The notes beneath the pieces are model-generated. The model saw only the letters and a list, made by a program, of their open reading frames with translations. It did not search any database and was not told the DNA's origin. From NCBI RefSeq assembly GCF_965363235.1, contig NC_134840.1, positions 91,214,416-91,278,415 on the forward strand: a stretch of DNA of 64,000 nt, read 5' to 3'. The position numbers and the translations under genes were made by a program. Within the stretch, counting starts at the first letter, position 1. Each line of letters begins with the position of its first letter. Shown one piece after another: positions 1 to 53,937 of this stretch. The stretch comes from Mytilus galloprovincialis (lineage: Eukaryota; Mollusca; Bivalvia; Mytilida; Mytilidae).

Positions 1-440
1 CTCGGGCACTAATAGTCCACCAGCAGAGGCATCGACCCAGTGGTAGTAATAAAATTAACGGTACCAATTTCGTTGCACCAGATGTGCATTTCGACAATTC
101 ATGTCTCTTCAGTGATGCTCGTGGCCAAAATATTTGAAATCCAAAGCTTATATAAAAGATGGAGAGCTTTAATCCAAAAGGTCCAAAAAGTATAGCCAAA
201 TCCGTGAAAGGAATTAGAGCTTTGCATGAGGGAGATACAGTCTTTAATTTATAATTATTTCCATCATTTTGTAACAGCAAATTTTAATAACACAAAAATT
301 CCGTATTTTCATGCCAGTACCGAAGTACTGACTACTGGGCTGGTGATACCCTCGGGCACTAAAAGTCCACCAGCAGAGGCATCGACCCAGTGGTAGTAAT
401 AAAATTAACGGTACCAATTTCTTTGCACCAGATGCGCATT
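1..440 (-). repeat. Retrozyme-like tandem repeat, ATC-cleaving hammerhead variant
   Basis: Two head-to-tail copies of one unit are visible: the block with gtccaccagcagaggcatcg occurs near 17 and again near 367, and gcacca|gatg occurs at 75 and 425, giving a 350-base period. Read on the minus strand, the shared block contains the CCACTGGGTCGATGCC and GTATCACCAGCCCAGTAGTC words found in the plus-strand repeats at 37, 45 and 47 kb, so this is a diverged member of the same superfamily. The left copy carries a complete hammerhead core (75-118). The right copy stops just inside stem III at about 440. The repeat also runs off the left window edge. Confidence 0.75.
75..118 (-). ncRNA. Type I hammerhead ribozyme, ATC cleavage site
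   Basis: On the minus strand the order is stem I strand GCATCA, core CTGAAGA, stem II GACA/TGTC with a 5-base loop, GAAA, a short stem III (ATGCACAT), cleavage triplet ATC, then stem I return strand TGGTGC. Stem I pairs over six bases including one wobble. The core differs from CTGATGA only at position 7, which tolerates substitution in hammerheads. Stem III has one mismatch and no real loop, so activity probably needs a dimer. The predicted cut lies between plus-strand 80 and 81. Confidence 0.65.
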
Positions 441-4100: not shown

Positions 4101-7100
4101 GCGTATATTGTGACCATTAACTCTAATGCACAAACCAGCGAAATAAATCATTTCATCCATCTAAATATCAAAAACATTGATTGTATATATAACTGGTTTA
4201 GAAACACAGCAATTAAGGAGGAGCGTTTTCAATACATACAACCGAAATGTGTAATCCAAACCCTACTGTGACTGAGCGGTCAAGTTGAGTATAATCCAGT
4301 CCATACACTTCAAAATATGTATGATCTGCTAAAAGGCAGTGAAATGGGGTCAACATGCATTAGCCTGTGACAAATGGGTCCATACATCATGTATTTCAAT
4401 GTCAACTCCGGAATACAACTTGTTGGCCAATGCATCTACAACGTGGATCTGTAGCTCTTGTAACACTCCAAATCACACACGAATTTTCGACTCAATTCTT
4501 GCTGACGATAACACCTATGACAGCCTTAACTTATTAGCATCTTAGAGCTAAAACAACACCACAATATCTAGCTCTCATTCAGTCATTGGTAGCCCGCAGG
4601 CATCCTCCTCTCCAAAGAAGAGTACTCCGTCCCCATGCTTAAAACCAAAGCATAAATTTAGGACACTGGTAGTCAACTTCCAAAGTATCTGCAACAAAGT
4701 AACAAAGATACACAAGTGCTTATAGACAACGCTGATCCTGACATAATTGTCGGTACAAAGACCTGGCTTAACAGTGAAATATTTTCAACAGAGGTACTCC
4801 CAAATAACTACAATGTTTTCAGGAGAGACGGGGACGACTCTCATGGAGGAGTATTACTTGAAATAACAAGCGACTTGGTATGTACACCTGTTCACACAAG
4901 CAAGGATTCAGAGCTATTAACTGTTAAACTGCATCATTCAAAGACTAAGTCTACAATCATTTCGGCATTTTATCGTCCGCCAAGCTGCACATCTAAAGAA
5001 AAAAGAAAAAACATTGTCGATCAATTGTCCAAAATCAGATTAGACAACCCGAAGAGTGAATTTTGGATTGCGGGTGATTTCAACCTCCCCGACATAGATT
5101 GGAGTAGCCTATCAATCACGTCACACAAATATCCTGCTCGTATGCCTTTCGAGTACCTTGAACTAGCCACTCGCTGTGGAGTTGAACAAATAGTCATGAC
5201 CCCTAAAAGAAAAAAAAATACTTAATCTATTTCTCACAAGCCATACTTACTAGTAGTAAATAAGTGCAAAACTATCCCAGGAGTTGGCGATCATGACACG
5301 GTGCTTATTGACACACTAGCTAAACCACAACGTGCAAAACCTACCAAAAGGAAAATCTGCTTATAGGATAAAACAAACCTTCCATCTCTGAAAGCAGATG
5401 TCACCCTATTTGTATCTGACTTTGTCTCACAGCCACCTCATAAGATGAACACTTGTTGAACTTCATTCCGAGACAAAGTCATAACCCTGATGGACAATCA
5501 CATCCCACATAAACTCACTCGCTCGCGATAGACAAACATGGATGAACACAGATACACACCGACTTGCACGACGCAAGGACCGAGTTTTTAAAAAAGCAAA
5601 TGCCACTAAGAGCACTAGAGACGCTTGCAGGTATAGACATCCTAAAGCAGAATGTCAACGCAACATCAGACAGGCTCACACCAATTATGTTAAAGACATC
5701 ATTAGGCTGGAAGCAAAGCATAACCCCAAAAAGTTTTGGTCCTTCGTGAAAAGTGGGAAACAGGAAGCCTTAAGTGTGGCTCCAATTAGGAAAACTGATG
5801 GATTGATCCACAACGACTCGAAGATAAAAGCCAATATCCTCAACAACCAATTTTAACCTGTCTTCACAGAGGAGGATACCAACACAATGCCAGATAAGGG
5901 ACCTAGTCCCTATCCCAAAATGGCCCTATTATCATCGGAACCACAGGTGTTGCCATTTTCTTAAAAACTTAAACCACACAAGGCAACAGGAACAGATTCG
6001 ATATCGTCTCGCTGCCTTAAAGAGTTATTATCAGAATTAGCACCTGCTCTTGCACACATCTTTCCATTCTCAATTAATGTAAGGCAAGTTCCAGATGACT
6101 GGCACATGGCACATGTGGTGCACTTCTTCAAGAAATTAGACAAGAGTACTGCGGCAAATTACCGTCCTGTGTCTCTAACAACAATTTGCTCCAAAGAGAT
6201 GAAGCACATACTCCACTCGAAGATAATGGAACATCTAGAAAAACACTCAATTTTAACACCAGCCCAACACGGATTCCGCAGCAAACGCTCTTGTGAGACA
6301 CAGCTGATTGCCACTATTCATGAACTGGCAAGTGGACTATCAGATAGTCAACAAATTGATGCAATATTATTAGACTTTGCCTAAGCATTTGATAAGGTGC
6401 CACACAAGCGACTTCTCCATAAGCTTCAATTCTACAGAGTCAGTGACTATACTCTCAAATGGGTGGAGAGCTTCCTGAACAGTAGGAAACAACATGTCCT
6501 AGTGGAGGAAATAATGTCAGACGAAGCAGAGGAAGTTTCTGGTGTACCGCAGGGTACAGTAATGCGACCCCTGCTCTTTCTCGTCTTCATCGATGAAATC
6601 GAGCGTGAAACTTTTTGCTGATGACTGCCTGTTATATCGCCCTATTCGACCCACTAGCGATTCCACCAAGCTGAAAGACGACCTAGATAAATTAGAAAAA
6701 TGGGAAAATGATTAGCATTCCACCCACAAAAATGTACCACCATCCATATCAGCAACAAACGCAAACCCACCATATGCGATAATCATCTGCATGGCCACAC
6801 CTTTGAAAGCGACCCAGGCGGGAAATACCTTGGCTTATACATCAGCAAGGACTTGTCTTGGCGTGAGCACATTAACCAGACCACAGCCAAAGCCTCCAGA
6901 TCTGTTGAATTCATGCGTAGGAACTCAGGAGTTGTCCTCAGGAAGTAAAAAGTCAAGCCTACAAAACTTTAGTGAGACCCGTCCTCGAGTACGCCAGTGC
7001 TGCCTGGGATCCCTACCAGCACCAACAAATCTAACAACTGGAAAATGTACAACGCCAGGCTGCCAGATTCGCAATTGGGGACTTTTCTCGAGGGAACCGG

Positions 7101-10100: not shown

Positions 10101-13100
10101 GGCTGATGAAGTACGTACTACCCGGTCAAATGAAACAGTCGTGCTAGATTAGCTATGCAAATATTTGCAACTAGTATACATTTTAAGATACCTATTTTCA
10201 AAAGTAAAATCACAAAAATACTGAACTCAGAGGAAATTTCAATTGTTAAGTCCCTAATAAAATGGCAAAATCAAATGACAAAACACATCAAACGAATGGA
10301 CAACTGTCATATTTTCCTGACTTGGTACAGGCATTTTCAAATGTAGAAAATGGTCGATTGAAATATAAATATATTCATTATATTATATGTTTTTTTTCTT
10401 CAGAAAAGTTAAGTGTGTGTTGATAAAAATACAGATTTTGAAAAAAAAAGTATAAACTAACTTTCACATAAACAATACTTACTCGAATGTGTCCACAATT
10501 CTCGTTATCCTTGTTATACCATCCAAATCACCACTTATAGTCAAAATAGGATGTGGATAAGCGTTAAGCCGACTTCCTCTTATCAAATATGAAGAAAACA
10601 GCACAATTCCTTCAATGTACCTGCTCGGAAGAATACCAAAAGCGGCAACTACCTGACCTTGAATATAAATCGTATATATATAATATGTGTGCAGTTCGCT
10701 CACTGTTGTGCTAAAAACTATCAAAAGGTTATTCATTAAATTTACTTTATTAACGTATGGTCATACATCCTATCGATACTTATATTTTGACATTGCTAAA
10801 ATGACTGCTGATAACGTCTTTGCACTACGTACATCTGATGTGTGCCGATTGGTATTTTTCTCTTAAAACAGCATTTTCAACTCATTTTACGATTTGTTAT
10901 TATGCTGTGCTCTTGCATCTCTGTCCCAGGGAAAGGAAGGATTGAGTGATTACAAACATATTAAACCCCGCCACATTTTAAAGTGCTTGTTCAAATGCAA
11001 GAGTCTGTATTTCAATGATTGTAGTAAGCGTCTGCATATCATATTATTTTTTTTAGTTATGTCACATCTGTCTGGCCTTTTCATAGCTAATTATAATACG
11101 GTTAAGGTTTACTCATTGTTGAAGGTATTACGTTACATATAGTTGCTTAAATCTGCTTTATTTGGACTCTGTTTGATAGTTAACTCACAAGCAAACATAC
11201 TACATCTCCTTATATCATATGACTTATATTCATAATGAAATAGAGAAAGGAAACGGGAATCTTTCAGACAACAACCAGCAGACTACACAATGATAAAATC
11301 CCGCACACGGAGGTGGGCTTCAGCAGACCCTTTACGGTGTTTTGTGTTGATCGCTCATAAATATCTCTGTAGCATTCTACATGATTCATGTGTCTTTATA
11401 CCGCAAGCAAGGAAACTGCACTCCAATATTTTTTGGCATTTTTGTTTATTTAATATTGTAGTAATATTAAATTACCAGACCGTTTAGTTTTCTCTTTTGA
11501 ATTGTTTCATATCTTAGCACTCCGTGACTTTTTATAGCTTATTATCCGGAATGGTTATCACTTTTTTGAATAAGATATGAGTTTTGCCTGGAAAGGTTAG
11601 AATACTCCAAATACCTATCTATACTATTAAATTAACGAGAAGACCTCATTTTGTTTGTCGCTTCTCTTCCTCCCACAATAAATTAATCATCCCGCCTCTG
11701 TGTCCTATAGGTACCATGCAAAGTCGCATTTGTCATCCATTCTTATGACTATTCAGTTTGGGTTATTTTAGGTGAAAAACGAAAATAAAGGTGTTTGGAT
11801 ATTGTTCCGTCATCAGACCGACATTTAAGTCATACATGACTACCGGTTTTAATATTGAGAACCAATCGTATGATAGATAACAATTTTAAATGGAAAATAA
11901 ATAAGCCAATCAGAGCGTTGTCCATATCGTGGTTTTTAGATCGTAAGAACCACTACTATTATACCTCAGTCAGTTTTAGCTTACACATAATTTTCAGAAG
12001 TCCTTGGACGGGGACAGGACAAACGCCATGGAGAAAAAACTTAGAAAATTAAATGTACTTTGATATTTATAATATAAATACGTATGTTCATAGTATACAG
12101 AAACGCGAAATAATAATATATAACAGAAAACAAAGTAGTAACGCAGTGGATTTTGCAAATAAGAGAGAGCACCAATATATTGTATTGATCATCACATGTA
12201 TTTATTTGTATTATCTCCCTTACTCCATGTGTCATGATTATACATGTATGATTGATGGGTTATTTCCCTTTACTGTTTACCGCCTCACGATCATTATTAA
12301 ATGTGCCTTTCTAACGATCACATGTGTTATAGTTTTCTCTGCTTACTGGCGTGGCGGCAGCGGTTTAAGAAACCAACATCTCAAATAACTCAATAATTTG
12401 AACATTATTCCACTCTAGAAGTAAACGGTGAGCAGGCAAATTTGTCATTTATTTTGACTAACACGACAACATTTTCTATTGTTGGACTTAACTGATCTTT
12501 ACAAAATGGCAGGCACACGTGCTCCAAAACAATGGTCACTCTCAAAAGTTGAAACAATAACACCGTTTGAAGCATGGAGACAAAACTTGCAATATACCTT
12601 GTCTCTTGATCAAAACTTCGCAGCGTTCCTTGTAGATGGATTTACATGACTGAAGAAAACCAACGCCAATCCTTTACGTGGCATTGCTGACGATGGCGAG
12701 GCGGTTGCCGAAGCTAACCGACGAACAACAGCCCAAGAGTGCACACATTTGGACCTTATGCTTGGGCAAATAGCTAATTAATATCCGATTATTTCAAGAA
12801 ACACTATAATTAAAAATTCGACATCCATTAATTCTATTTTGCAGTCAATTCGTCTACACTACGGATTTCAGTCTACTGGTGGACACTTTCTTGATTTTAA
12901 TAGCATCTTTTTGGAACCAAATGAGCGTCCATAGGACTTATTTCAGCGATTGGCTAGTTTTATTGAAGACAATATGCTTCGTGCCGGTGGCAATATTCAT
13001 CACCACGGAGAAGTACCTGAAGTCGACGAAGAACTATCGCCTTCTTTGGAAAACCTGATTGTACTAACTTGGTTAACTTAAAGACTTATTAATCGTGACT

Positions 13101-25460: not shown

Positions 25461-25479
25461 AGCTGGAGTGTGTATACAA

Positions 25480-26135
25480 CAGGTTTAATCCACCTTTTTT
25501 TCTACATAAGAAAATGCCTGTACCAATTCATGAATATGACATTCGTTTAGTGTGTTTGGGCTTTTAATTTTTCCATTTGAAAAGGGACTTTCTGTTTTGA
25601 ATTTTCCTCGGAGTTCAGTATTCTAAGATTTTACTTTTTGCTGCTTAAATGCATTGAAGAAATTTATAGTTTCTAAATCAAAATCGTCTCATTTGTCATA
25701 GATTCTGTTACAGTTTATAATTCTATTATGGTGTACTTGTGTTTTGTCGTTAATTATATTATTCTCTGTCCTGAGTGTTCTTGCGTTTATAGTACTGCAT
25801 TCCGTTCACGTAAAGTTTTCATTTTTCGGTATTTCTACCATTACCATATAACGGTAAACGGGAGGTTTGTCAAGCCATAACATCAGGTTCAACACATAAT
25901 TGTTTTTTTAAAATGTCTTTTACCAAATCAGGAATATGGCAATTGTTATCAAACATAAATATTCCATTTATATGTTTGTTGGCGTTGGTTATTTGTAGCA
26001 GTTTAAGTGTTTATGTTGTTCCGTTTTTTTTACCTCTTATAGCTTATATGTCTTCCTCGGTTTTGGTTTGTGACTCAGCTTTGTGTCAGTTTAATCGATT
26101 TATTGAACAGAGGTATTATACTGATGCCTGCATTT
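25480..26135 (-). repeat. Family B (25480-25645) and family A (25845-26135) tail repeats, minus strand
   Basis: 25480-25645 is the reverse complement of the family B words (cctgtaccaattcatgaata, gggactttctgttttgaatt). 25845-26135 reverse-complements family A, ending gaacagaggtattatactgatgcc, the counterpart of the ggcaacagtagtataccgctgttc start seen at 40.78 and 46.89 kb. The frame 25913-26203 is noncoding repeat. Confidence 0.6.
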
Positions 26136-31459: not shown

Positions 31460-31550
31460 CCTTTTTAACTGTTTTAAATTCGAGCGTCACTGATGAATCT
31501 TTTGTAGACGAAACATTCGCCTGGCGTAAATACAAATTAAATTCTAATTC
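31460..31550 (+). repeat. Retrozyme fragment with decayed hammerhead
   Basis: cgagcgtcaCTGATGAatcttttgtagacGAAAC retains the core and stem II, but the stem III and cleavage region reads ATTCGCC, losing the ACGCGCGTC box. It is followed by the usual tggcgtaaat. A relic. Confidence 0.65.
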
Positions 31551-31961
31551 GTAAACTCAAACGAACATAAAATATTTATCAAATAACCACAAACTCTTAC
31601 ATGGGAGACGCCACTTGCAGAGACAAGTGCTCTCGAATGTAAATAATATTATGAAAATAAATAATATGATTAATAATATTATTTATTTTGCAAAATGCTA
31701 CTGTACACTTTGACTGCAATGGCTCAAATGACTTTAAACCACCTGAGTTCACTCGTGCATGAGCTCAGTATCCCAATCGAACCGACCTTACTATAATTAA
31801 CCAAACATGTGTTAACTATAAACAAACAACATTTTACATGTTCGATTTTGTACAACTTTGATAAATACATATTTACTCCTGGTATCTATGATGAGTTTAA
31901 GTACCAGTAAAAATTTAAATACTTATCTTAACTTAACTCATAATGAAAGTAAATATAAGTC

Positions 31962-32085
31962 AGGAATATAACAGTTGTTGTCCATTCGTTTGATGTGTTT
32001 GAGCTTTTGATTTTACCATTTGATTAGGGACTTTCCGCTTTGAATTTTCCTCGTTGTTAAGTATTTTTGTGATTTCACTTTTTTA
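31962..32085 (-). repeat. Penelope-tail family repeat (family B) fragment
   Basis: The plus strand reads the reverse complement of the family: caggaatataacagttgttg, ccattcgtttgatgtgtttg, gactttccgctttgaatttt, ending gatttcactttttt. Confidence 0.65.
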
Positions 32086-33004: not shown

Positions 33005-34610
33005 TAGAGATATATGGAAGAGAGACGAAAGATACCAGAGGTAGAGTCAAACAAGATAAAAAATAAACCGACAACGGCATGACTAAAAATTTAAAAAAAA
33101 AACAGAATAAAAGTACATAAGACAAAACATACAAAACTAAAGACTAAGCAACACGAACCCCACCAAAAACTTGGGGTGATATGGTATCATACATGTCCAA
33201 GACTAAACTAGATGTCGATATCGACAATATCAACAATGTCGACACGATATTGACTCCATATCGACAAACGAATACACCGTGACAAAACTCATTGTCGATA
33301 TCGACAATTTCGTTACGATATCGAATCGATATCGACAAATGAAGATAGCATGAAAAAACATACTGTCGATATCGTCGATATCGACTATAACAACACGATA
33401 TCGAATATCGAAAATTTCTGAATTAAAAAATGTATGAACATACAAAACGTCGATATCGTTAATATCGACAACAGCGATACGATATCGATTCGATATCGCC
33501 ATAGAAAATTTTAAACCTCTCCCCGATGATATATGGAATATGGATATACATTAAAGGAGAGCAAACATAATCTAAAAAGAAGTGCTGACAACCCAGGACT
33601 ACCTAAGAAGAAGGGCAAACAGAGGACAAAAGACAAACCCGGTAACAAATAAGACATACTAGGACAAACAACATTTTACATTGAAACTAAAAACAAATGA
33701 AAAACGCAGACCCCGAAATACTTGGGCGACTATACTATAATTTCTTATTGCGTTAACATCTATGTATGAATGAATGTAAAGTTAAGATATTTTACATGAT
33801 CTCTTAAATGCATTGCCAACATAAACAAAAATCGTATGTTAACTGGATTTAAAAAGAAAATTTACGGATTAACTCCAACCGGAGGAAAAAAAATATAAAC
33901 GCACATAGTCCCCCTTTCGAATAATACAATCAATAATCAAGTTACCCTAATGCGTTGTCAAATGAAGATCTTCATAGTGTTATATATTTTATACGATGTA
34001 TTTTTATTACTTAATAATCAACATAGAAATTTACATAAAACAACATCATAGACAAAATGACAATTGTGTCAAATTGTCAATTCATATTAAAATATTTCAA
34101 ATTCATTTTGCTCGTTTAGCGTTTTTTCACCATTTTATATCATTGCATACATCACATATTGTTATATTCACAATAATCGACAACCAAGACAGAGGTTTCA
34201 GGCCGTTGTTCAAGCTATGGGATGTTTGTTGATATCAATTCGATATCGTCGATATCGACAACCAAGACAGAGGTTTAAGAACGTTGTTCTAGTTATACAA
34301 CCAAGACAGAGATTTCAGGCCTTTGTTCAAGATATGGGATGTTTGTCGATATCGCTTCGATATCGACAACAAAGACAGAGGTTTCGGGCTGTTGTTCAAG
34401 TTGTGGGATGTTTGTCGATATCGACAACAAAGACAGAGGTTTAGGGATGTGAAATGCTTGTCGATATCGATTCGATATCAACATCCCAGACAGAGAATTC
34501 AGGACATGTGGACATAACAACATACCGTGTATCGATATCTAATCAACATCGTGTCTTGGACATACCGCGTGATCTCAGGTGCTCCGGAAGAGTAAACTAA
34601 TCCCCCCTTC
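33005..34610 (+). repeat. Dispersed repeat family C, split by an insertion
   Basis: 33005-33180 (gacgaaagataccagagg through gaaccccaccaaaaacttgg) continues at 34569-34605 (gatctcaggtgctccggaag). At 51.9 kb the same sequence is uninterrupted. The 1388 bases between are a separate insertion. In mussels this family continues into Penelope-like coding sequence, so it probably is another Penelope tail. Confidence 0.7.
33181..34568. mobile_element. 1.39-kb element with TCGATATCGA palindrome arrays and TIRs
   Basis: Inserted into a family C repeat with GTGAT on both sides (33176-33180, 34569-34573). The ends are inverted: GGTAT then GTCCAAGAC at the left (with 7 extra bases between) and GTCTTGGAC then ATACC at the right. 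Inside the left end, four units of about 80 bases each (33210-33510) carry GTCGATATCG and its variants. Inside the right end about five units of 55-85 bases (34180-34545) carry acaaccaagacagaggtttc plus the same palindromes. The centre (33510-34180) is unique and noncoding. A foldback-like or subterminal-repeat DNA transposon; family unknown. Confidence 0.65.
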
Positions 34611-35337: not shown

Positions 35338-36425
35338 CTATATCTAAACAAAAAGGAAGATTTCTTCAACAAGGAGTGACAGAACGGTGTTCAAAAATAA
35401 AATATAGATATAACGGGAAGATTCCAAATAGAATATTCACCAATAGTCTGCTTCCACTTCAAAAGTACAACGTTACATTCTGTAGAGTAACAAAATGTGC
35501 ATCGACGTTTTGGACAAGACTACTAGTGTGTTTAGAAAAAGGTTTATGGAAACCACCTTATGTGTTCAAACCAAATGATGCAAGTGTAAAATTAAGAGAT
35601 AATTTTAATAGGTTCCCTATTCGAAAGATATATAAAAGGGTGAATGATACTAAAAATTTTATGTTTAGTAGAAATCCATATTCAAGAATATTTTCGTTCT
35701 ACGTAGATAAACTATTTTCTCCTAATCCATATTATTGGAATAGTCTTGGAGTTGGAATTACCAAACGAAGCAGAGAAAAGGCAACATGTGGACATGACGT
35801 CACATTTAACGAGTTAGTTGATTACATAATTTACACTCCATCCACCGCTAGAGATTTCCATACTATACCAATCAACGATATTTGCCGGCCATGTACTATT
35901 CCTTATGATATCATTGGCAAGATGGAAAATTTTGAAAATGATGTTTCCAATATACTGAAAGAAATAGGTGCGGAATCATATCCATACTTTTCAGAAAATT
36001 TTAGGAAAGAATACACAACAGATTCTATTTATGATATTGCACAGGCCTTTGTTTCTTTTCGACAAAATTCAGATAAATGCATAGATCGTCAAACTGGATT
36101 AAAACGTGTTTGGCGGGTTTTACAAATAAGAGGAATCATTTCAGAATCATTACAAATGCCTTTCTCTTCAAACGAATCACAGACTATTACGCTTTCTAAA
36201 TTACTGAATACTATTTTGAAAGCACGTGATGAATCTTTAAATGAAGATTTGAGGGATCAAAAGGCAACATTTTTCAAAGAGGCTTATTTAAGCGTTCCTT
36301 TAGATACAATGATGAAGCTACAAAAAGTGTATAAAGAGGATTTTCATATATTTAACTATGAATCGTTCCCTAAAAATTTGTTTACAGTAAAAAGGAACAC
36401 TACAAATGAAATATTTATTGTTTAA
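35338..36425 (+). CDS. Carbohydrate sulfotransferase-like protein, terminal exon (copy 1)
   Basis: After acceptor ttattgcag| at 35337 the frame runs 361 codons to TAA (phase 1 from a missing upstream exon). It encodes the Golgi-lumen catalytic domain of the CHST8-14/HNK-1 type (Sulfotransfer_2), which transfers sulfate from PAPS to glycans. Motifs: 5'-phosphosulfate loop CRVTKCASTFWTRLL; 3'-phosphate loop RNPYSRIFSFYVDKL with Arg and Ser in place; CGHDVTFNELVDYI; and CRPCTIPYDIIGKMENFEND, the CxPC-Y-D-x-I-G-K-x-E signature. In the first loop the usual P-K-x-A/G reads T-K-C-A, an odd change beside the essential Lys. The membrane anchor must lie in an upstream exon I cannot find. A close paralogue lies tail to tail at 41634-42740. 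Confidence 0.85.
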
Positions 36426-37140: not shown

Positions 37141-37612
37141 TATTAATAAAAACTTTCAAAAACATGAAACAACTAATACAATAAAAACATTCATTTCGTC
37201 ACTGATGAATCCTAGACGAAGCGTCTGGCGTATCAAACTATAAGCCTGGTACCTTTCATAACCATTTACACCCCTAGGTCGATGACACTGCTGGTGGACG
37301 TTTGGTGCCTGCGGGTATCACCAGCCCAGTAGTCAGCACTTCGGTGTTGACATGAATATCAATTATATGGTCCTTTTTATTAATTTTGCAAAAAAATGCA
37401 TTATTTGAAATATTAAGGATTTTATTATACAAGACATAGATAATCTTAGCCGTATTTAGCACAACTTTTTGGAATGTTGGGTCATCAATGCTTTTCACTT
37501 TTTTACTGTTTGGTTTTCTAACTATTTCGATCTGATGGTCTCTGGTGAGTCTTATGTAGACGAAACGCACGTTTTTGGAATTAGATGATAAGCCTGATAC
37601 CTTTGATTATTA
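37140..37612 (+). repeat. Retrozyme dimer remnant, about 346-base unit
   Basis: Two hammerhead relics (37197-37230 and 37531-37577) bracket one unit with ctaggtcgatgacactgctg, ggtatcaccagcccagtagt and cagcacttcggtgttgacat. The first has an intact CTGATGA but lacks one side of stem III (GACGAAGCGTC). The second reads CTGGTGA, losing core A6, and has ACGCACGTT at the cleavage site. Both look inactive. Confidence 0.7.
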
Positions 37613-37983
37613 GGTATTATTAGGCTAATAAAATGGATTTCCATTAGCAATCATACCATATCTTTTTTTTTTTTATGTTAACAACAGTCTTATTAGGGGT
37701 TTTATGTATAAATAAAATTATCATATTTTATTAACTCGGGATAATCAACAGAAATTACATTATCATAGTATCTACTTAAAGTTTTAACTTTTAAATTTCT
37801 AAAGTTTTCATGCAAGAAGATTCGAGTTTAATTTTACAATATATAGTTTTGCCATGATGTACATAATATTGCCAATCGAGAAACAAAATGATGAATGATG
37901 TTTTCGCACGTCTAGGAACAACAGTTCATATATTTTTTACCGTTTAATATTGTAATTAATAGATGCATCCAGAAATAAAGGAA

Positions 37984-38385
37984 AAAGTAAAAACACAAAA
38001 ATACTGAACTCCGAGGAAAATTCAAAAAGGAAAATCAAAAATCAAAAGGCAAAATCAAAAGTCCAAACACATCAAACGAATGGATAAATAATGTCATATT
38101 CCTGACTTGGTACAGGCATTTTCTAATGTAGAAAATGGGGGATTGAACCTGGTTTTATAGCTAGCTAAACCTCTCACTTGTATGACAGTCGCATCAAATT
38201 CCATTACATTGTCAACGATGCATGAACAAAACAAACATACTCAAAGAGTACAAATGTCAAAAATAGGGGTACAACAGTCAATATTGTGTTATCATCTTAA
38301 TATCACTACATAAACAACAAATGTAACAAAGTAGCACAAAAAGGCATACATCAAATTTAACATTCTCATTTTGCTTTTCTTATAC
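37984..38385 (+). repeat. Penelope-tail family repeat (family B)
   Basis: Fullest copy in the window: aaaaagtaaaaacacaaaaa, aatactgaactccgaggaaa, cctgacttggtacaggcatt, ggttttatagctagctaaac, ctctcacttgtatgacagtc. On the minus strand it lies downstream of the RT at 39109-40310, separated by the tandem repeats, consistent with being the element's 3' region. Confidence 0.7.
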
Positions 38386-39080
38386 GGCTGAATTTATCTA
38401 TGTAAAGTCTACCCATAAATGAAAGAAGGTTTTCATTACTGGTGTAAAATTGCGCGTTTGAAATTCGCACAGGTAGACATAAAAATAATTTTGTCGTATG
38501 ACGGCATACATAAATGCAGACTCACGTAAAGTAGATATAACAAAAAACAGACTTACAGTAAAAATAATAAATAAAATAATGGTGTGGTTCAAAGTATGAC
38601 GGGACACATAAGTACAGTTTCACGTCAAATACGGCTGAATTTATCTATGTAAAGTCTACCCATAAATGATAGAAGGTTTTCATTACTGGTGTAAAATTGC
38701 GCGTTTGAAATTCGCACAGGTAGACATAAAAATAATTTTGTCGTATGACGGCATACATAAATGCAGACTCACGTAAAGTAGATATAACAAAAACCAGATT
38801 TAACAGTAAAAGTAATAATAATAAATAAAATAATGGTGTGGTTCAAAGTATGACGGGATACATAAGTACAGTTTCACGTCAAATGTATATCATAAAAAAC
38901 AGACTAAACAGAAAAAGTAGTCTTATTGAATAAAATAGTTTAGTCATTCATAGTATGTCAAGATCCTTAAGTAAAAGTAATATCAATAAATGAAATAATT
39001 TTGCCGTTCAAAGTATGTGGTTTTACGTAACCACAGAGTCACTTCAAATGAATATCTAAAAAAGACATATAAAAGAATAC
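38382..39080. repeat. Tandem duplication, 248-250-base unit, plus diverged third unit
   Basis: The block from tacggctgaatttatctatg to cagtttcacgtcaaa (about 38382-38631) repeats at 38632-38882 with few changes (aaatgaaag/aaatgatag, an added aataata). A more diverged partial unit follows to about 39080 (aaaacagactaaacag, gttcaaagtatgtgg). The minus frame 38398-38607 is a product of the repeat. Confidence 0.8.
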
Positions 39081-39108
39081 TATAATACGTAATTAAGATG
39101 ATAACAAA

Positions 39109-40315
39109 CGTCAGTACGCAAAATCTATACTTCAAGACCATCTTGTATTATTTGTGAAGTTGATACGGAATATTTATCAACAAGTTCTGGGTATCTTCCG
39201 ATGAACTTTTTTAGAAAAGGGACGAGACGTTCTTTGACATACCCCTGGTTCATCAATTTTCTGCTCAGACACTGGTGACGTTTTACAAAGTCTGAATAGG
39301 AGCTGCAAGCTCTTGAATACCTAATAAGTTGGGAAATGTATATTCCATATGCAGGTGAAGTTGGTATATTACTACTAAGGTGGGGGAAATTGATAATTTC
39401 AAAATTAAAATCGTCTCGTTTGTCAGAGATGACTGTGTATGTCAAATTCGAGGTATAAGTCTAAAAATGAGGCAGAGGAAGCCGTGTCTGTGGTCTCTTT
39501 AATTTCTAGTTCTGGTGGGTATATTAATGGAATCCAATCAGAAAAGTTCGGATTGTTAATGGAAAGAACATGATCAATATATCTGAAAGTGAAATTAAAT
39601 AACCTGGCTTCTTTGATCTTCTTGTTTTTGACAAGTGTCTGAAGGAACTCCGATTCATATGAAAATAAGAAGAGGTCGGCAAGAAGAGGCGTACAGTTCG
39701 TTCCCATAGGAATGCCGACAATTTGTTGAAAAAGTCTACCTCCAAATTCAACAAATATGTTGTCAATAAGAAACTCCAGCATACTGATCACTTGTTCCTC
39801 TGTGTAGTATGTTTTACCCTTTTGTTCCTTATTAACAAAATATGCCTTATGGTATCCCAAAGTGATAAATTTATAGCGTATGCTACCATTTTTATGATGA
39901 AAAGCATTGTGAATTATTTCTTTTAGACGGGTTTTCAATTTCACATGGGGAATGGTTGTATACAAGGTTGAAAAATCAAAAGTTTTAATAGAACTAATTT
40001 CAGAAAAAGACCGAGATTTAAAATTATCCAGAAGTTCTTTAGAGTTTTTCAGAATCCACATATGGTTAATACCACTACGTGAGTAAACAGTTTCACAGTA
40101 TATCTGAAGACCCTCTTTAACTGCGGACAGAATTTTAGTCAATCTAATGGACAATTCTTTAGTAGAACAAGCAGATGAGCCGGCAATGTACCGTTGTTTG
40201 TACGGATTTTTGTGAAAGAAACAATTGTTAACCAATGAGTCTACACATAAAAAGTAAAACAAACTTGGGAGAAGAATGAACACCAAACGAAACTATTCGA
40301 GCTTTATCCGCCATG
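39109..40315 (-). pseudogene. Penelope-like retroelement, reverse transcriptase part
   Basis: Two overlapping frames (40286 to 39423, then 39445 to 39125) carry Penelope-type RT features: KTFDFSTLYTTIPHVKLK, FGGRLFQQIVGIPMGTNCTP, ADLFLFSYESEFL, a catalytic box FRYIDHVL (usually YxDD), ASFLDLYLE, and a C-terminal PELVDKYSVSTSQIIQDGLE. The N-terminus and any GIY-YIG endonuclease are absent, so it is 5' truncated, and the frame change near 39430 and the D-to-H change make it inactive. Penelope-like elements are known to carry hammerhead ribozymes. It lies between the two sulfotransferase genes. Confidence 0.8.
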
Positions 40316-41633: not shown

Positions 41634-42740
41634 TTATTTTAAACAAAATATATCTATTGTACTGTTTCCTCGTTGTCTTGTTCCAAACAAATGTTTAGGA
41701 AAGAGATCATAGTTGAATATTTGTAAATCCTTTTTATATACTGATTGGAGCTTAAACATGGTATCCAACGGTATATTGGAGTAAGCCTGTGTAATAAACA
41801 TTGTCTTTTGGGCTTTCATGTCTTCGTTTTCAGATATATCACGTGCTTTGATAATACTCTTGAGTAATTTCGGAAAAGACAGGCTGAATGATTCTTTTGA
41901 TGTGAAAGGAACTGGGATTGTTCGTGAAATTATTCCTCTTATTTGTAACTTCAGCCAAACACGTTTTATTCCAGTATGGCGGTCTATACATTTATCTGAA
42001 TCCCTTCGATTTGCAAAATAAGCTTGTACAATATCATAAATAGCGTCCGATGTATATTCTTTCTTAAAATTTTCTGCAAAATAAGGATATGATTCCGCAC
42101 CTATTTCTTTAAGTATTCTAGAAACATCGTTTTCAAAATTTTCCATTTTGCCAATAAAACTGTAACGAATTTTACACGGACGGCAAATGTCATTGGTTGG
42201 TATGATATGGTAGTCTCTCATTCTGGATGGAGTATTGATAATATAATCAACAAACTCATTAAATGTCACGTCATGTCCACATGTTGCGAATCCTCGGCTT
42301 CGTTTAGTTATTCCAATACCAAGATCATTCCAATAAAATGGATTTGGAGAAAATAGTTTATCTACGTAGAACGACAATACTCTTGAAAATGGATTTCTAC
42401 TAAACATAAGATTTTTTGTATTTTTCAAAAATTTATATGCCTTTCGCACAGAAAACTTACTAAAATCATTTTTTAATTTAACACTGCCATCATTTGGTTT
42501 AAACACAAAAGGTGGTTTCCATAGATCTCTTTCTAAACACACCAATAGTCGTGTCCAAAATGTTGATGCCCCTTTTGGTACTCTACAAAACGTAACATTG
42601 TACTTTTTTAGTGGTAGAAGACTGTTTCTAAACATGTTATCAGGTATCTTCTGGTCATAAGAATAGTTGATTTTTGAACAGCGTTCTGTTACTCCGTTTC
42701 CTTGAGATATCTCATTTTCCTTCGTCACGGTTGTAAAATT
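41634..42740 (-). CDS. Carbohydrate sulfotransferase-like protein, terminal exon (copy 2)
   Basis: After acceptor tttttgacag| at 42741-42742 the frame runs 368 codons (NFTTVTKENEISQGNGVTER onward) to TAA. Same family and layout as copy 1: CRVPKGASTFWTRLL as the PAPS 5'-phosphosulfate loop with the normal P-K, RNPFSRVLSFYVDKL as the 3'-phosphate loop, CGHDVTFNEFVDYI, and CRPCKIRYSFIGKMENFEND. About three quarters of residues match copy 1 by eye. The frame is intact, so both genes are probably functional Golgi sulfotransferases acting on glycans; the acceptor sugar cannot be told. The upstream exon with the membrane anchor is not found. The convergent arrangement suggests an inverted duplication. 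Confidence 0.85.
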   Translation of the reverse strand, partial: NFTTVTKENEISQGNGVTERCSKINYSYDQKIPDNMFRNSLLPLKKYNVTFCRVPKGASTFWTRLLVCLERDLWKPPFVFKPNDGSVKLKNDFSKFSVRKAYKFLKNTKNLMFSRNPFSRVLSFYVDKLFSPNPFYWNDLGIGITKRSRGFATCGHDVTFNEFVDYIINTPSRMRDYHIIPTNDICRPCKIRYSFIGKMENFENDVSRILKEIGAESYPYFAENFKKEYTSDAIYDIVQAYFANRRDSDKCIDRHTGIKRVWLKLQIRGIISRTIPVPFTSKESFSLSFPKLLKSIIKARDISENEDMKAQKTMFITQAYSNIPLDTMFKLQSVYKKDLQIFNYDLFPKHLFGTRQRGNSTIDIFCLK

Positions 42741-44740: not shown

Positions 44741-44881
44741 TTTCTTTATTTATTTTTGAAATACTAAGGCTTTTCTATCTCAGGTATAGATTACCTTAGC
44801 TGTATTTGGCAAACGTTTAGGAATTTTTGGTCCTCATTGCTCTTCAACTTCGTACTTTATTTAAACATTTCTTGATTCGGG

Positions 44882-44922
44882 CGTCACTGATGAGTCTTTT
44901 ATAGACGAAACGCGCGTCTGAC
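44882..44922 (+). ncRNA. Type I hammerhead ribozyme (left of tandem)
   Basis: Stem I CGTCA / TGACA (four pairs), core CTGATGA (44887-44893), stem II GTCT/AGAC with 5-base loop, GAAA, self-complementary stem III ACGCGCGT without a loop, cleavage triplet GTC ending at 44918. All conserved core bases are present. The loopless stem III implies activity mainly as a dimer, as described for short-stem animal hammerheads. Confidence 0.8.
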
Positions 44923-45237
44923 ATAAGTGTAAAGTTTTAGTCCTGGTATATATGATGGGTATATTTACAACCACTGGGTCGATGCCACTGCTAGTGGAGA
45001 TTTATTTCCTCGAGGGTATCACCAGCCCAATAGTAAGCACTTCTGTGTTGACTTGAGTTATCATTGATATGTTCATAATAATACATTAACTGTTAACAAA
45101 ACTTTGAATATTTGAAATACTTAGGCTTTTCTACCTCAGGAATAGATTACCTAAGCTGTATTTGGCAAAACGTTTAGGAATTGTTGGTCCTCAATGCTCT
45201 TCAACTTCGTACTTTATTTAAACTTTTTTTATTCGAG

Positions 45238-45279
45238 CGTCACTGATGAGTCTTTTGTAGACGAAACGCGCGTCTGGCG
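45238..45279 (+). ncRNA. Type I hammerhead ribozyme (right of tandem)
   Basis: Core CTGATGA at 45243-45249, stem II GTCT/AGAC with loop TTTGT, GAAA, stem III ACGCGCGT (45266-45273), cleavage after C45274, stem I CGTCA / TGGCG with five pairs including a G-U. All conserved bases are intact; the best-preserved ribozyme in the window. Confidence 0.85.
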
Positions 45280-45604
45280 GAAGTGTAAAATTTTAGTCCT
45301 GGTATCTATGATGAGTTTATTTAGTATCGTTAAAGATTACCACACTTAAAGACATTCATTTTATAGGTACTTTTTTCCTGTGGTAGTATTCTTTAGAATA
45401 ATCGTGAGCGTTTCTTTTTCTTGATTTAATCAAGCAATCAATTATTAACTTGTTCATTGACTGATATCTTTTTAAAAACCTCCGGGGAATCTTAGATTAG
45501 AACAAAAACTTGGTGCATACGTACTGAATTTTCTCCGTTCCAGTTGCACTTCAGTATGGCTACGGTGAAGGAATTTCATGAGTTTGTTTTAACCTTTATA
45601 CAAG

Positions 45605-47439: not shown

Positions 47440-47850
47440 CATTATCAATTCAAGGCATGATCCTGGTACCTTTGATAACTGTTTACAGCAGTAGGTCGAT
47501 GCCACTGCTGGTGGACGTTTCGTCCCCGAGGGTATCACCAGCCTAGTAGTCAACATTTCGGTGTTGACATGAATATCAATAATGTGCTCATTTAATAAAT
47601 TTCATGTAAACAAAACTTTGATTTTTTTCGAAAAACTAAGGATTTTTTTATCCCAGGCAAAGATTATCTTAGCCGTATGTGGCACAACTTTTTTTGGAAT
47701 ATTGGATCCTCAATGCTATCAATTTTGTACTTCTTAGGCTTTATAAATATTTTGATATGAGAGTCACTGATGAGTCTTATGTAGATGAAACGCGCGTCTG
47801 GCGTACTAAATTATAATCCTGGTACCTATGAAATATATGAAAGTATTATT
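47440..47850 (+). repeat. Retrozyme monomer with one hammerhead
   Basis: catgatcctggtacctttga, gcagtaggtcgatgccactg, gagggtatcaccagcctagt, ttcggtgttgacatgaatat, then atcttagccgtatgtggcac, a hammerhead, and tataatcctggtacctatga again. The repeated catgatcctggtacc/taatcctggtacc at both ends shows that slightly more than one unit is present. Closer to the 37.2-kb copy than to the 45-kb tandem. Confidence 0.75.
47763..47802 (+). ncRNA. Type I hammerhead ribozyme, weakened stem II
   Basis: Core CTGATGA (47767-47773), stem II GTCT/AGAT closing on a G-U at the core, GAAA, stem III ACGCGCGT, GTC cleavage site at 47798, stem I GTCA / TGGC. All catalytic bases are present, but the normally G-C closing pair of stem II is a wobble. 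Confidence 0.7.
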
Positions 47851-47859
47851 AGAATATTG

Positions 47860-48820
47860 GTTGTTTTTTCTAAAAGCAAGAAATAATTTCTGTCATTATC
47901 AAGATACAACCTACAACTCATCAAAACTTCGATCTTTGGAAAAACCGTGCTTTGTTGAACAGAAAAGTGTAATTCTAACTTATGAAATTGAGTTTGTTTT
48001 TAGTTAGGGTCAGGCAGTATCACAATATCAAAGTTTTTATGAGCTGTCAGGTTAGAATAGAAGATTCGAAACAATATATTTGAAAAATCAATTGACATTT
48101 GTTTATATTGTAATCAGTTGTCCTTCCCACAAGCAGTTTTTTTAGATATAATTTCGTGTTTTAAAATCTTTTCTCACTCAAAATCTAACTTCCATCTCGG
48201 CGTGGTGAACAGGAGCAGGCACTGTTTACTGAATAGTAGGAGTTAAAACAAACCCAAGAACATGTCATATATAGAATGACAATAATTTCATATCAAATAT
48301 TAATAGACTATAAAGTATAGTAGATAATTACCTACACGTATGATATTGTTCTATTATATGTCATTATGATATATTTCTATTATGAATTACAATATACGTT
48401 GAACAACAAACGTCAAAATCATTCAATCGCGTAGTGGAATTAACTATTTTTGAATTCTTATAAATTCTATATATAACTTTTGGACTAGTTTAAATCTCGG
48501 TCTATTTCTGAAATTTATTCTTACATACTTTTGATTTTTTAACCCTGTATGCTAACATTTCTATGTAAATTTTAAAATTGTTTGTATGCACATTGAACGA
48601 CAAATTTATGTGACGTATAAAATTTTCTGACGTCAGACACTTAAATCAATGAATATGTTCGTAGATAGTAGATGTTTTTGTGTTCTGTTAAATTGTTCCT
48701 TTTAAAATTGTTATACGATGATGACTGATGTACCCATATTTTGACTATTTTATTTATTGTGTCTGTTTATTTAACGCATCAATGTAAATATATCGGAAAT
48801 TGATGTGACTGTCATTAAAG
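47860..48820. other. Intergenic, no gene recognised
   Basis: AT-rich sequence without recognisable motifs, RNA genes or repeat families. Confidence 0.45.
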
Positions 48821-48827
48821 TGAGAGG

Positions 48828-49015
48828 GTTAGCGCTATAGAACCAGGTTTAATCCACCATTTTCTACATTTGAAAATGCCTGTACCAAGTCAGGAATATG
48901 ACAGTTCTTGTCCATTCGTTTTTGATGCGTTTTGTTATTTGATTTTGCCATGTGATTATGGACTTTCCGAATTGATTTTCCTCTAAGTTTAGTATTTCTG
49001 TGATTTTACTTTTTA
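48828..49015 (-). repeat. Penelope-tail family repeat (family B)
   Basis: Reverse complement of the family: aaccaggtttaatccaccat, aaaatgcctgtaccaagtca, gaatatgacagttcttgtcc, ttgattttgccatgtgatta, ending gtgattttactttttaa. Confidence 0.7.
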
Positions 49016-52818: not shown

Positions 52819-53937
52819 ATGAATTGTTCTATTATATCAGATACATGTATGAAGAAATGTTTAGATGAAAAGAGATGGCATTTGATAAAATCATACAAAT
52901 GGACAGAATTGTCATCTTCAAAATTAATTGATGTTCTATCAACAGAAAATGTTAAAAAGGAAATTTTAGATTTAGAGATGCAACATTTTGATAGCAATAA
53001 ACTAGGCGTTGATGGTGCAACTGAAAAACTTACCAAAATTATACAAACTATTGCAGAAAATACATGTAAAGTCATATCTAAACCAACAAAAAAGAAAAAG
53101 AAAAAAATTAAACAAGTATGGTCAGATAATGTAGTATATGAAACAAAAAGACAAATAAACTTTTTAGGAAATAAAATCAAGAATAACTTAAATGACAAAA
53201 GTTTAAAACCTAAATATTTTGAATTATGTAAAAAACTAAAAAAAATTATTAAACAGAAAAAATTTGAATATCACCAAAAACTTTATAAATCACTTTCAGA
53301 TAATTTTAAAAATAATCCAAAAGAATACTGGAATATTCTAAAGGCAATAATAAAGAAACCAAATATTGAAGAAGATATTCCTGAAAATATAATCATAAAA
53401 CATTTCCAGGATCAGGGTACACCAGCCTCATATGATAAATCCTTTGTAAATAAACTGGAACGTGAACTAAACATTCTAGAAGATAATATTGAATTGAATA
53501 TGGAAACTGATGCACCAATTACATTTGCTGAGGTAAAATTGGTCATTTCAAACCTTAAAGTAAACAAATCAGCAGGCCCAGATAGAATTGTGAATGAAAT
53601 ACTCAAACACTCACAACCTGTGATAATTAATTTGATTTTAAAGACAAGTAATTATCCAGATTCTTGGAAATTATCTTTCATGATCCCTTTACATAAAAAA
53701 GGTGACAAATTAGACCCTAATAATTATAGAGGAATTTCTCTTATAAGTAATATACCAAAATTTTTTAATGCCATATTTAATAATAGACTAATCAAGATTG
53801 TTGACAAACAATTAAGTGATTGTCAGTTTGGTTTTAGAGAAAATCACAGAACAGCTGATATCATCTTTTTATTAAAGTCCTTGATAAATAAATATTTACA
53901 TAAAGAGAAAAAAAAAAGATTTATGCCTGCTTCATAG
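52819..53937 (+). pseudogene. LINE ORF2 linker and reverse transcriptase fingers
   Basis: A lysine-rich linker leads to ISNLKVNKSAGPDRIVNEIL, SFMIPLHKKGDKLDPNNYRG and QFGFRENHRTADIIFLLK, RT blocks 0-2. The frame shifts in an A-run near 53915; the palm motif CFIDLKKAFDSVWR continues in another frame. Confidence 0.8.

Follow-up and report, generated by a model that had tools for sequence, protein, structure and literature searches.

The window, a 64,000-nucleotide stretch of the Mytilus galloprovincialis genome (contig NC_134840.1), contains two type I hammerhead ribozymes on its forward strand. Hammerhead 1 lies at 44881-44924 (+) and is predicted to cut after 44918, and hammerhead 2 lies at 45237-45280 (+) and is predicted to cut after 45274. 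As a preliminary description of this DNA had said, both are real: the core CTGATGA..GAAA and the palindromic ACGCGCGT stem III are present in each, and the GTC triplets end exactly at the two predicted cut positions, 356 bases apart. One non-standard pair in stem I of each hammerhead has to be added to that description. Against Rfam Hammerhead_1 (RF00163), hammerhead 1 scored 35.4 bits, above the gathering score of 34, and hammerhead 2 scored 27.7 bits, under it. Scored with a model trained on 15 hammerheads of this kind, both of these included, they gave 70 and 69 bits, respectively.

The complete 356-nt unit between the predicted cuts (44919-45274, +) has a GC content of 0.362. It is noncoding, as had been claimed, since the longest stop-free frame of the circularised unit has 44 codons, and an open reading frame (ORF) with reverse transcriptase (RT) and GIY-YIG endonuclease, the mark of a Penelope-like element (PLE), is absent from it. 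The whole insertion, assigned to family U1, spans 44752-45323 (+). It is 5'-truncated at unit position 190, its 3' end is at a site fixed throughout the family (unit position 48-49), and it contains a direct repeat (44752-44967 and 45108-45323) with 356-base spacing. A type I hammerhead with intact core, tandem units of ~150-450 nt with GC below 50%, and many noncoding copies are marks of a metazoan non-LTR retrozyme, and all are present here. The identification as a tandem retrozyme therefore stands (type I hammerhead, 356-nt low-GC noncoding unit, thousands of copies), and the dimer of that description comes to 1.6 units, with the first unit truncated, instead of two full copies. An 8-bp duplication, TTTATTTA at 44745 and 45317, was considered as a target duplication and rejected because its right copy belongs to the retrozyme's own 3' end; 44752-45323 has no clear target duplication.

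The preliminary description also took this dimer for a recent insertion and for the form in which such insertions are born. Neither idea is supported. Its halves are identical at 197 of 215 positions (91.6%), versus 98-99.7% between the units of arrays L046 and L067. At this identity, a recent dimer insertion was rejected: the insertion is old if both halves derive from one RNA, and L046 and L067 indicate that younger arrays exist. Among 42 copies sampled on contig C1 (see below), 27 are shorter than one unit, and the lengths range from 77 to 1294 bases (median 257). Since both ribozyme cores are kept, a read-through transcript of 44752-45323 could still yield a 356-nt RNA.

Further retrozymes were found in the window and throughout the one genome searched (1.38 Gb, 331 contigs). 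This genome contains 3,712 exact matches to a 34-mer hammerhead pattern, versus 0 to the reversed control. In the window, the hammerhead model gave five more matches at E <1e-4, namely 47761-47804, 75-118 (-), 31484-31527, 37542-37573 and 37196-37231, the last two being decayed or partial. The first belongs to a second retrozyme, of family U2, at 47482-47831 (+, BLAST limits), whose copy of the module described below is at 47482-47551; by eye, the homology seems to extend upstream to about 47460. An old decayed retrozyme at 37196-37573 (+) retains a module at 37265-37334 between hammerhead remnants at 37196-37231 and 37542-37573. The match at 31484-31527 (+) is a hammerhead fragment of similar kind in an interrupted element. 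A third family, U3, occupies 1-440 (-), with a 350-nt unit at 81-430, the hammerhead at 75-118 and a module at 330-399. The U3 hammerhead was missing from Rfam scans at E up to 0.5 for the whole window and up to 5 for positions 1-700, and it was found at E 1.6e-9 with a model built on U1 and U2 hammerheads. Every one of its pairs is standard though several letters differ on both sides, and its cleavage triplet is AUC. The hammerheads of U1 and U2 are 0.93 identical, and that of U3 is 0.64-0.68 identical to those two.

Insertion limits were read in two samples, both of which were selected on the presence of a hammerhead. This requirement makes inserts of less than about 75 bases invisible and biases the 5' ends upstream of the hammerhead. 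The first sample came from the first 47 exact hammerhead matches on C1, among 100 listed of the 3,712, which gave 42 loci. Two of these (L096 and L122) reach the end of the fetched stretch and were left out, so 40 loci were readable; L125, L126 and L128 have common flanks and count as one event, which leaves 38 events. With 3'-end positions numbered on the best-matching reference unit, 33 of the 40 loci end within 5 nt of unit position 48 (41 in the U2 equivalent), 38 within 10 nt and 39 within 14 nt; by event, the counts are 31/38 within 5 nt and 36/38 within 10 nt. The loci beyond 5 nt are L105 (-13), L116 (-10), L118 (-8), L123 (-8), L110 (+7), L114 (+10) and L109 (+104). The second sample consisted of 30 loci, 28 of them U2, cut from the best 37 Rfam matches. 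Here 26/30 end within 5 nt, and 30/30 within 14 nt, of the homologous point between ...GATAACTATT and TACACCACTGGG, with L021 (-14), L011 (-11), L038 (+7) and L034 (+8) beyond 5 nt. The 5' ends are scattered in both samples. For 69 pooled events, in which L096 and L122 are still included and two unit numberings are mixed, the mean resultant length was 0.972 for 3' ends versus 0.351 for 5' ends. Retrozyme insertions thus share one fixed 3' end, which lies within the unit, 48 nt beyond the ribozyme cut.

An initial mapping set of the 40 loci with the highest similarity to the window unit, where one array is split into L044 and L045, showed the same ending. By coordinate, 27 of the 40 end at unit positions 45-51, and the printed flanks of L053, L054, L065, L073, L076 and L077 share this ending by eye. 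L069 ends at 42 and L070 at 49, and in both a separate piece follows further on; L044 and L056 extend past the fetched sequence, and L045, L059 and L061 do not fit. In the genome, the exact 3' 26-mer of the retrozyme occurs 5,294 times, and 983 of these occurrences continue exactly into the next unit (mutated continuations fall outside this count). No target duplication was detected over 33 insertions, where the mean boundary match was 4.12 compared with 4.00 (sd 0.15, 300 re-pairings) for mismatched flanks. There was no AT preference at the insertion points. At L051, where a retrozyme sits inside a PLE fragment, the overlap is at most 2 bases.

Two other readings of these loci were dropped. 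Match coordinates had suggested that 5' ends are fixed at the hammerhead and that there is a second class of 3' ends; after six left flanks had been read, both were put down to about 50 nt of padding around the scored pieces. L085 (C1:27494300-27496000), with hammerheads 1,237 apart, and L088 (C1:19815700-19823000), with retrozyme 3' ends 3,175 apart, were considered as larger helper elements. Both are tandem duplications: 355/364 bases are alike from position 101 on at a shift of 1,237 in L085, and 3823/3824 at a shift of 3,175 in L088. There is no stop-free frame of 150 codons in L085 and none of 100 codons in L088, so they are not helpers. In these duplications, other DNA has been copied along with the retrozyme 3' ends.

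Arrays were compared by the first four units from each of 13 arrays. The mean unit identity was 0.949 within arrays (102 pairs) versus 0.882 between arrays (435 pairs), and 29 of 37 units had their nearest neighbour in the same array; in array L026, the within-array identity was only 0.804. At C6:100964269-100968172, each of 11 units scored 508 bits. The longest array has 27 complete units (C14:73313110-73323317). In L045 (G000:C14:73318001-73324117), this array stops at position 5317, at unit position 258, against (TTAGGG)n; this joint lies about 141 kb from the contig end and resembles an old telomere-type joint.

A PLE family proposed here as the helper is also present in the window. Its main copy is 5'-truncated, at 37979-40216 (-), corresponds to PLE 2066-43 and ends at the PLE's own fixed 3' site. 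An open RT fragment of 287 aa lies at 39423-40286 (-), and 136 related places in the genome were scored. Its YxDD motif is altered, and its single-sequence fold had a mean pLDDT of 36.2; searches of solved structures gave one chance-level match and otherwise nothing, and NCBIfam gave nothing useful. Several relatives have ORFs of about 1,050 aa, some in tandem. The ORF of L084 matches GIY-YIG (PF01541) at 183-273 with E 1.5e-6, and a YIDD motif is present in L084 and L087; the RVT_1 match of L084 is weak (E 0.044, below the cut-off). RT and GIY-YIG in one ORF are thus found in L084/L087, and of this ORF the window copy 37979-40216 keeps only an RT part. Tandem units, 5' truncation and a fixed internal 3' end were likewise found in these elements (L084/L087 and 37979-40216). 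No hammerhead was detected in the PLE. Two ORFs of the Sulfotransfer_2 kind, 35376-36425 (+) and 41634-42728 (-), flank the PLE and the old retrozyme in opposite orientation, and a 71-base tandem repeat with ATATCGACAATGTCGACACG-type motifs lies at 33227-33385.

The ends of the PLE copies were then set beside those of the retrozymes. In the window, further PLE fragments end at PLE position 41 (48722-49015, +, old), 43 (25473-25642, +), 40 (31957-32083, +) and 39 (10200-10362, -). The 3' site is reached by 11 copies, 5 from the window and 6 from fetched loci. Ten of these stop at PLE 39-43 and the other at 51, and their 5' ends are varied; five further window matches are interior pieces that stop elsewhere. 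The exact 3' 26-mer of the PLE occurs 487 times in the genome, 11 of them continuing exactly. Since the 3' ends are fixed and the 5' ends varied, the GIY-YIG PLE and the retrozyme have the same insertion anatomy.

The two elements also share sequence at this point. The proposed reverse-transcription start module of the window unit (44965-45035, +) comprises the junction, between 44966 and 44967, and a stem region common to the PLE start site. When four retrozyme units were locally aligned with the whole PLE, all of them landed within PLE positions 18-115, and the alignments begin at or slightly before both 3' junctions. In the L046 unit, TACAACCActgAGTCGATGCC...ACTGCTGGTGGA...TTTCCCCGAGGGTATCA aligns with TACAACCAAGTCGATGTC...ACTGCTGGTGGA...TTTTTCCCCGAGGGCATCA of the PLE. 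The background was obtained from 200 dinucleotide shuffles of the PLE. The L046 unit scored 53.8 (shuffles: mean 29.6, max 39.8) and U3 scored 46.2 (shuffle max 37.8, 0/200 as high); U2 scored 41.8 and the window unit 38.8, with 2/200 and 3/200 shuffles as high, respectively. When the gap costs were simplified and 40 block shuffles served as background, the L046 unit alone beat the shuffles (37 vs max 31), and U2 (30 vs max 32) and the window unit (27 vs max 28) did not exceed them. The similarity of the window unit to the PLE is, by these scores, weaker than that of its relatives.

A predicted structure is common to both elements. Folded as single sequences, the PLE and the modules of L046, U2 and U3 have both helix A and helix B. 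Helix A is missing from the window copies at 44965 and 47482, whose folds differ, and the 44965 copy keeps helix B. Helix A is ACTGGGT/GCCCAGT in the retrozyme versus ACCAAGT/ACTTGGT in the PLE, with three pairs changed on both sides. In nine aligned sequences (6 retrozyme and 3 PLE, the PLE rows being close relatives), 94.0% of cells pair, and 0/500 shuffles reach the pairing or the covariation score; the number of doubly changed pairs (3) and the pair types are not above shuffles (288/500 and 500/500, respectively). For 26 retrozyme modules alone, covariation is weak (40/500 shuffles as high). When a model of these 26 modules was run over 36,323 bases of PLE loci, its three best matches were the three PLE start sites, with rough E-values of 0.008-0.014 versus 3 for the next match. 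Only two PLE variants, about 90% alike, cover the module. Because the module of the PLE contains an additional hairpin of about 24 nt, the model puts the PLE 5' strand out of register.

The module is also the better conserved part of the retrozyme unit. Among U1, U2 and U3, identity is 0.85-0.88 in the module versus 0.51-0.69 in the rest of the unit. Conservation is thus high in all three retrozyme families over the ~65 nt just past the fixed 3' point, and these nucleotides resemble the sequence and the predicted stem at the PLE start site, where the module lies directly upstream of the first ATG (nt 136). A UUCG-type hairpin at unit positions ~115-135 (window 45033-45053) adjoins the module; read by eye, the alignment of U1, U2 and U3 suggests that this hairpin is kept in all three and that its changes are paired.

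These results suggest a mechanism in which the enzyme, the direction, the priming and the use of a circle are all inferred. As published mussel work indicates, multi-unit transcripts would cut themselves at the hammerheads, and the pieces of about 350-370 nt would close into circles. The RT of the GIY-YIG PLE would recognise the stem module of about 65 nt at unit positions ~47-112. Primed at a nick made in the target, copying would start inside the RNA just 5' of the module, at about unit position 48, run backwards over the joined ribozyme site, sometimes for more than one turn of the circle, and stop at a variable point. The resulting insertions would share one 3' end, differ in their 5' ends, measure anything from much less than a unit up to many units, and lack a target duplication. 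A cut linear monomer offers only 48 nt from the start, so the template should be either joined or uncut. We assign a probability of roughly 0.65 to this PLE-helper explanation as a whole, taken jointly with the reading of 44752-45323 as an old copy of a non-LTR retrozyme. That the retrozymes are parasites of the GIY-YIG PLE, with a module at its start site and an enzyme that rolls round circular RNA, is probable in our judgement.

The most serious rival keeps the same PLE enzyme and takes a linear, uncleaved multi-unit transcript as the template, which would make cutting and circles side products or even causes of lower mobility. For the studied PLE, unprocessed RNA is reported to have been the dominant in vitro substrate, and mutation of the ribozyme left insertion normal (PMC11167929). 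An uncut transcript would leave identical ends, and it also allows inserts to cross the cut site intact. The higher identity of units within arrays than between them, with most nearest neighbours in the same array (L026 aside), and arrays of equal unit scores such as the 11 units at 508 bits, speak against it. One circle predicts such arrays, and the identities fit a circular template but do not prove it, since unequal exchange after insertion could also homogenise arrays. Overall, we regard the linear template as unlikely.

A change of enzyme is less probable still. A fixed 3' end with ragged 5' ends is general to target-primed elements, so a LINE or another reverse transcriptase might move the retrozyme, and the shared module would be an old relic of PLE descent. 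The window does contain a LINE-like ORF (52819-53937, RVT_1 E 6.5e-6, just below the Pfam cut-off), and LINEs are named beside PLEs as candidates (PMC7229834, PMC11722881). However, the retrozyme 3' end falls inside the unit, at the point where the PLE itself also ends, and three families conserve the module better than the remainder of the unit, which makes a LINE improbable. A satellite spread at the DNA level, by unequal exchange or circular DNA and with no RNA step, would account for the long arrays (27 complete units) and for tandem duplications such as L085 and L088, which carry retrozyme pieces along with other DNA. Yet DNA processes independent of phase would give random ends on both sides, and most C1 copies chosen by their hammerhead are single sub-unit pieces with one fixed 3' end; we consider this explanation very improbable. 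As for chance hammerhead-like motifs in a simple repeat, nothing speaks for them except the low information of a short motif, and the 3,712 exact copies versus 0 for the control, together with U3 hammerhead pairs kept despite two-sided changes, leave them hardly any credence.

The class itself is already known. Mussel retrozymes have been published for Mytilus galloprovincialis, with about 5000 hammerheads in repeats of ~350-390 bp (Cervera & de la Pena 2020, PMC7229834), and their circles were shown by northern blot (PMC7229834). The elements described here are like those non-LTR retrozymes in their type I hammerhead, low-GC noncoding units of ~350-390 nt, tandem arrangement and thousands of copies per genome (PMC7229834). 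Target duplications of more than 4 bp, an optional feature of metazoan retrozymes, were not seen here. That paper proposed that circles are copied by the enzyme of an autonomous element, with PLEs as a strong candidate (PMC7229834). By its description, the helper was left open and no fixed insertion end was given, in contrast to the fixed internal 3' end and the PLE-shared module found here. In the accessible part of a review, metazoan retrozymes are described as having no conserved motif that betrays the mobilising element (PMC7761336), and helper candidates are given only as LINEs or PLEs in the corresponding part of PMC11722881. Among the matches listed, which covered few subscription papers, no title or abstract opening claimed an identified helper for metazoan retrozymes, and the accessible text of PMC10294476 makes no mention of retrozymes. 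Plant LTR retrozymes have a type III hammerhead, LTRs of ~350 bp, PBS/PPT, 4-bp TSDs and a length of ~700 nt (PMC7761336). They share with the present elements a noncoding unit bounded by hammerheads and a circular RNA, which is proposed here (PMC7761336), and they differ from the type I hammerhead, the 356-nt unit and the lack of a TSD signal at this locus.

The closest experimental parallel is PAc of Anolis, a PLE whose enzyme starts inside its RNA at an AC-rich stem loop, a start tied to the genomic tail (Frangieh 2024, PMC11167929). Genomic copies with fixed internal 3' ends, an AC-rich start and tandem units are common to PAc and the elements here (PMC11167929). By our computation from the numbers in that paper, PAc starts ~85-92 nt past its ribozyme cut, within the ORF and at two adjacent sites (PMC11167929). 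In contrast, the retrozyme codes for nothing and has one start site, 48 nt past the cut. In the mussel PLE, GIY-YIG precedes the RT (it follows the RT in PAc), the start site and module come before the first ATG, and no hammerhead was detected. The studied PLE is reported to cut at ATT (PMC11167929), a preference for AT that the insertion points here do not have.

SINEs offer another parallel. They share a 3' tail with a partner LINE, so that a non-autonomous RNA carries the recognition sequence of its partner's enzyme. The retrozyme and the PLE would resemble SINE/LINE pairs in this respect. Unlike in SINEs, the shared part lies beyond the start of copying and is therefore missing at the 3' end of every insertion; the template, too, is probably circular.

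In conclusion, one fixed insertion end inside the unit, the same anatomy in a PLE and a start-site module common to both are new here, and this particular PLE is a likely source of the enzyme that copies the retrozyme, judged by genomic sequence. The shared module and anatomy turn the question of the helper into a simple assay. If the explanation is true, the missing helper would be named, and the circle, rather than an RNA end, would be the template. To the evidence that PLE enzymes start inside their RNA, it would add a second line, genomic and from another animal, and it would explain how a circle made by a ribozyme is converted into tandem DNA.
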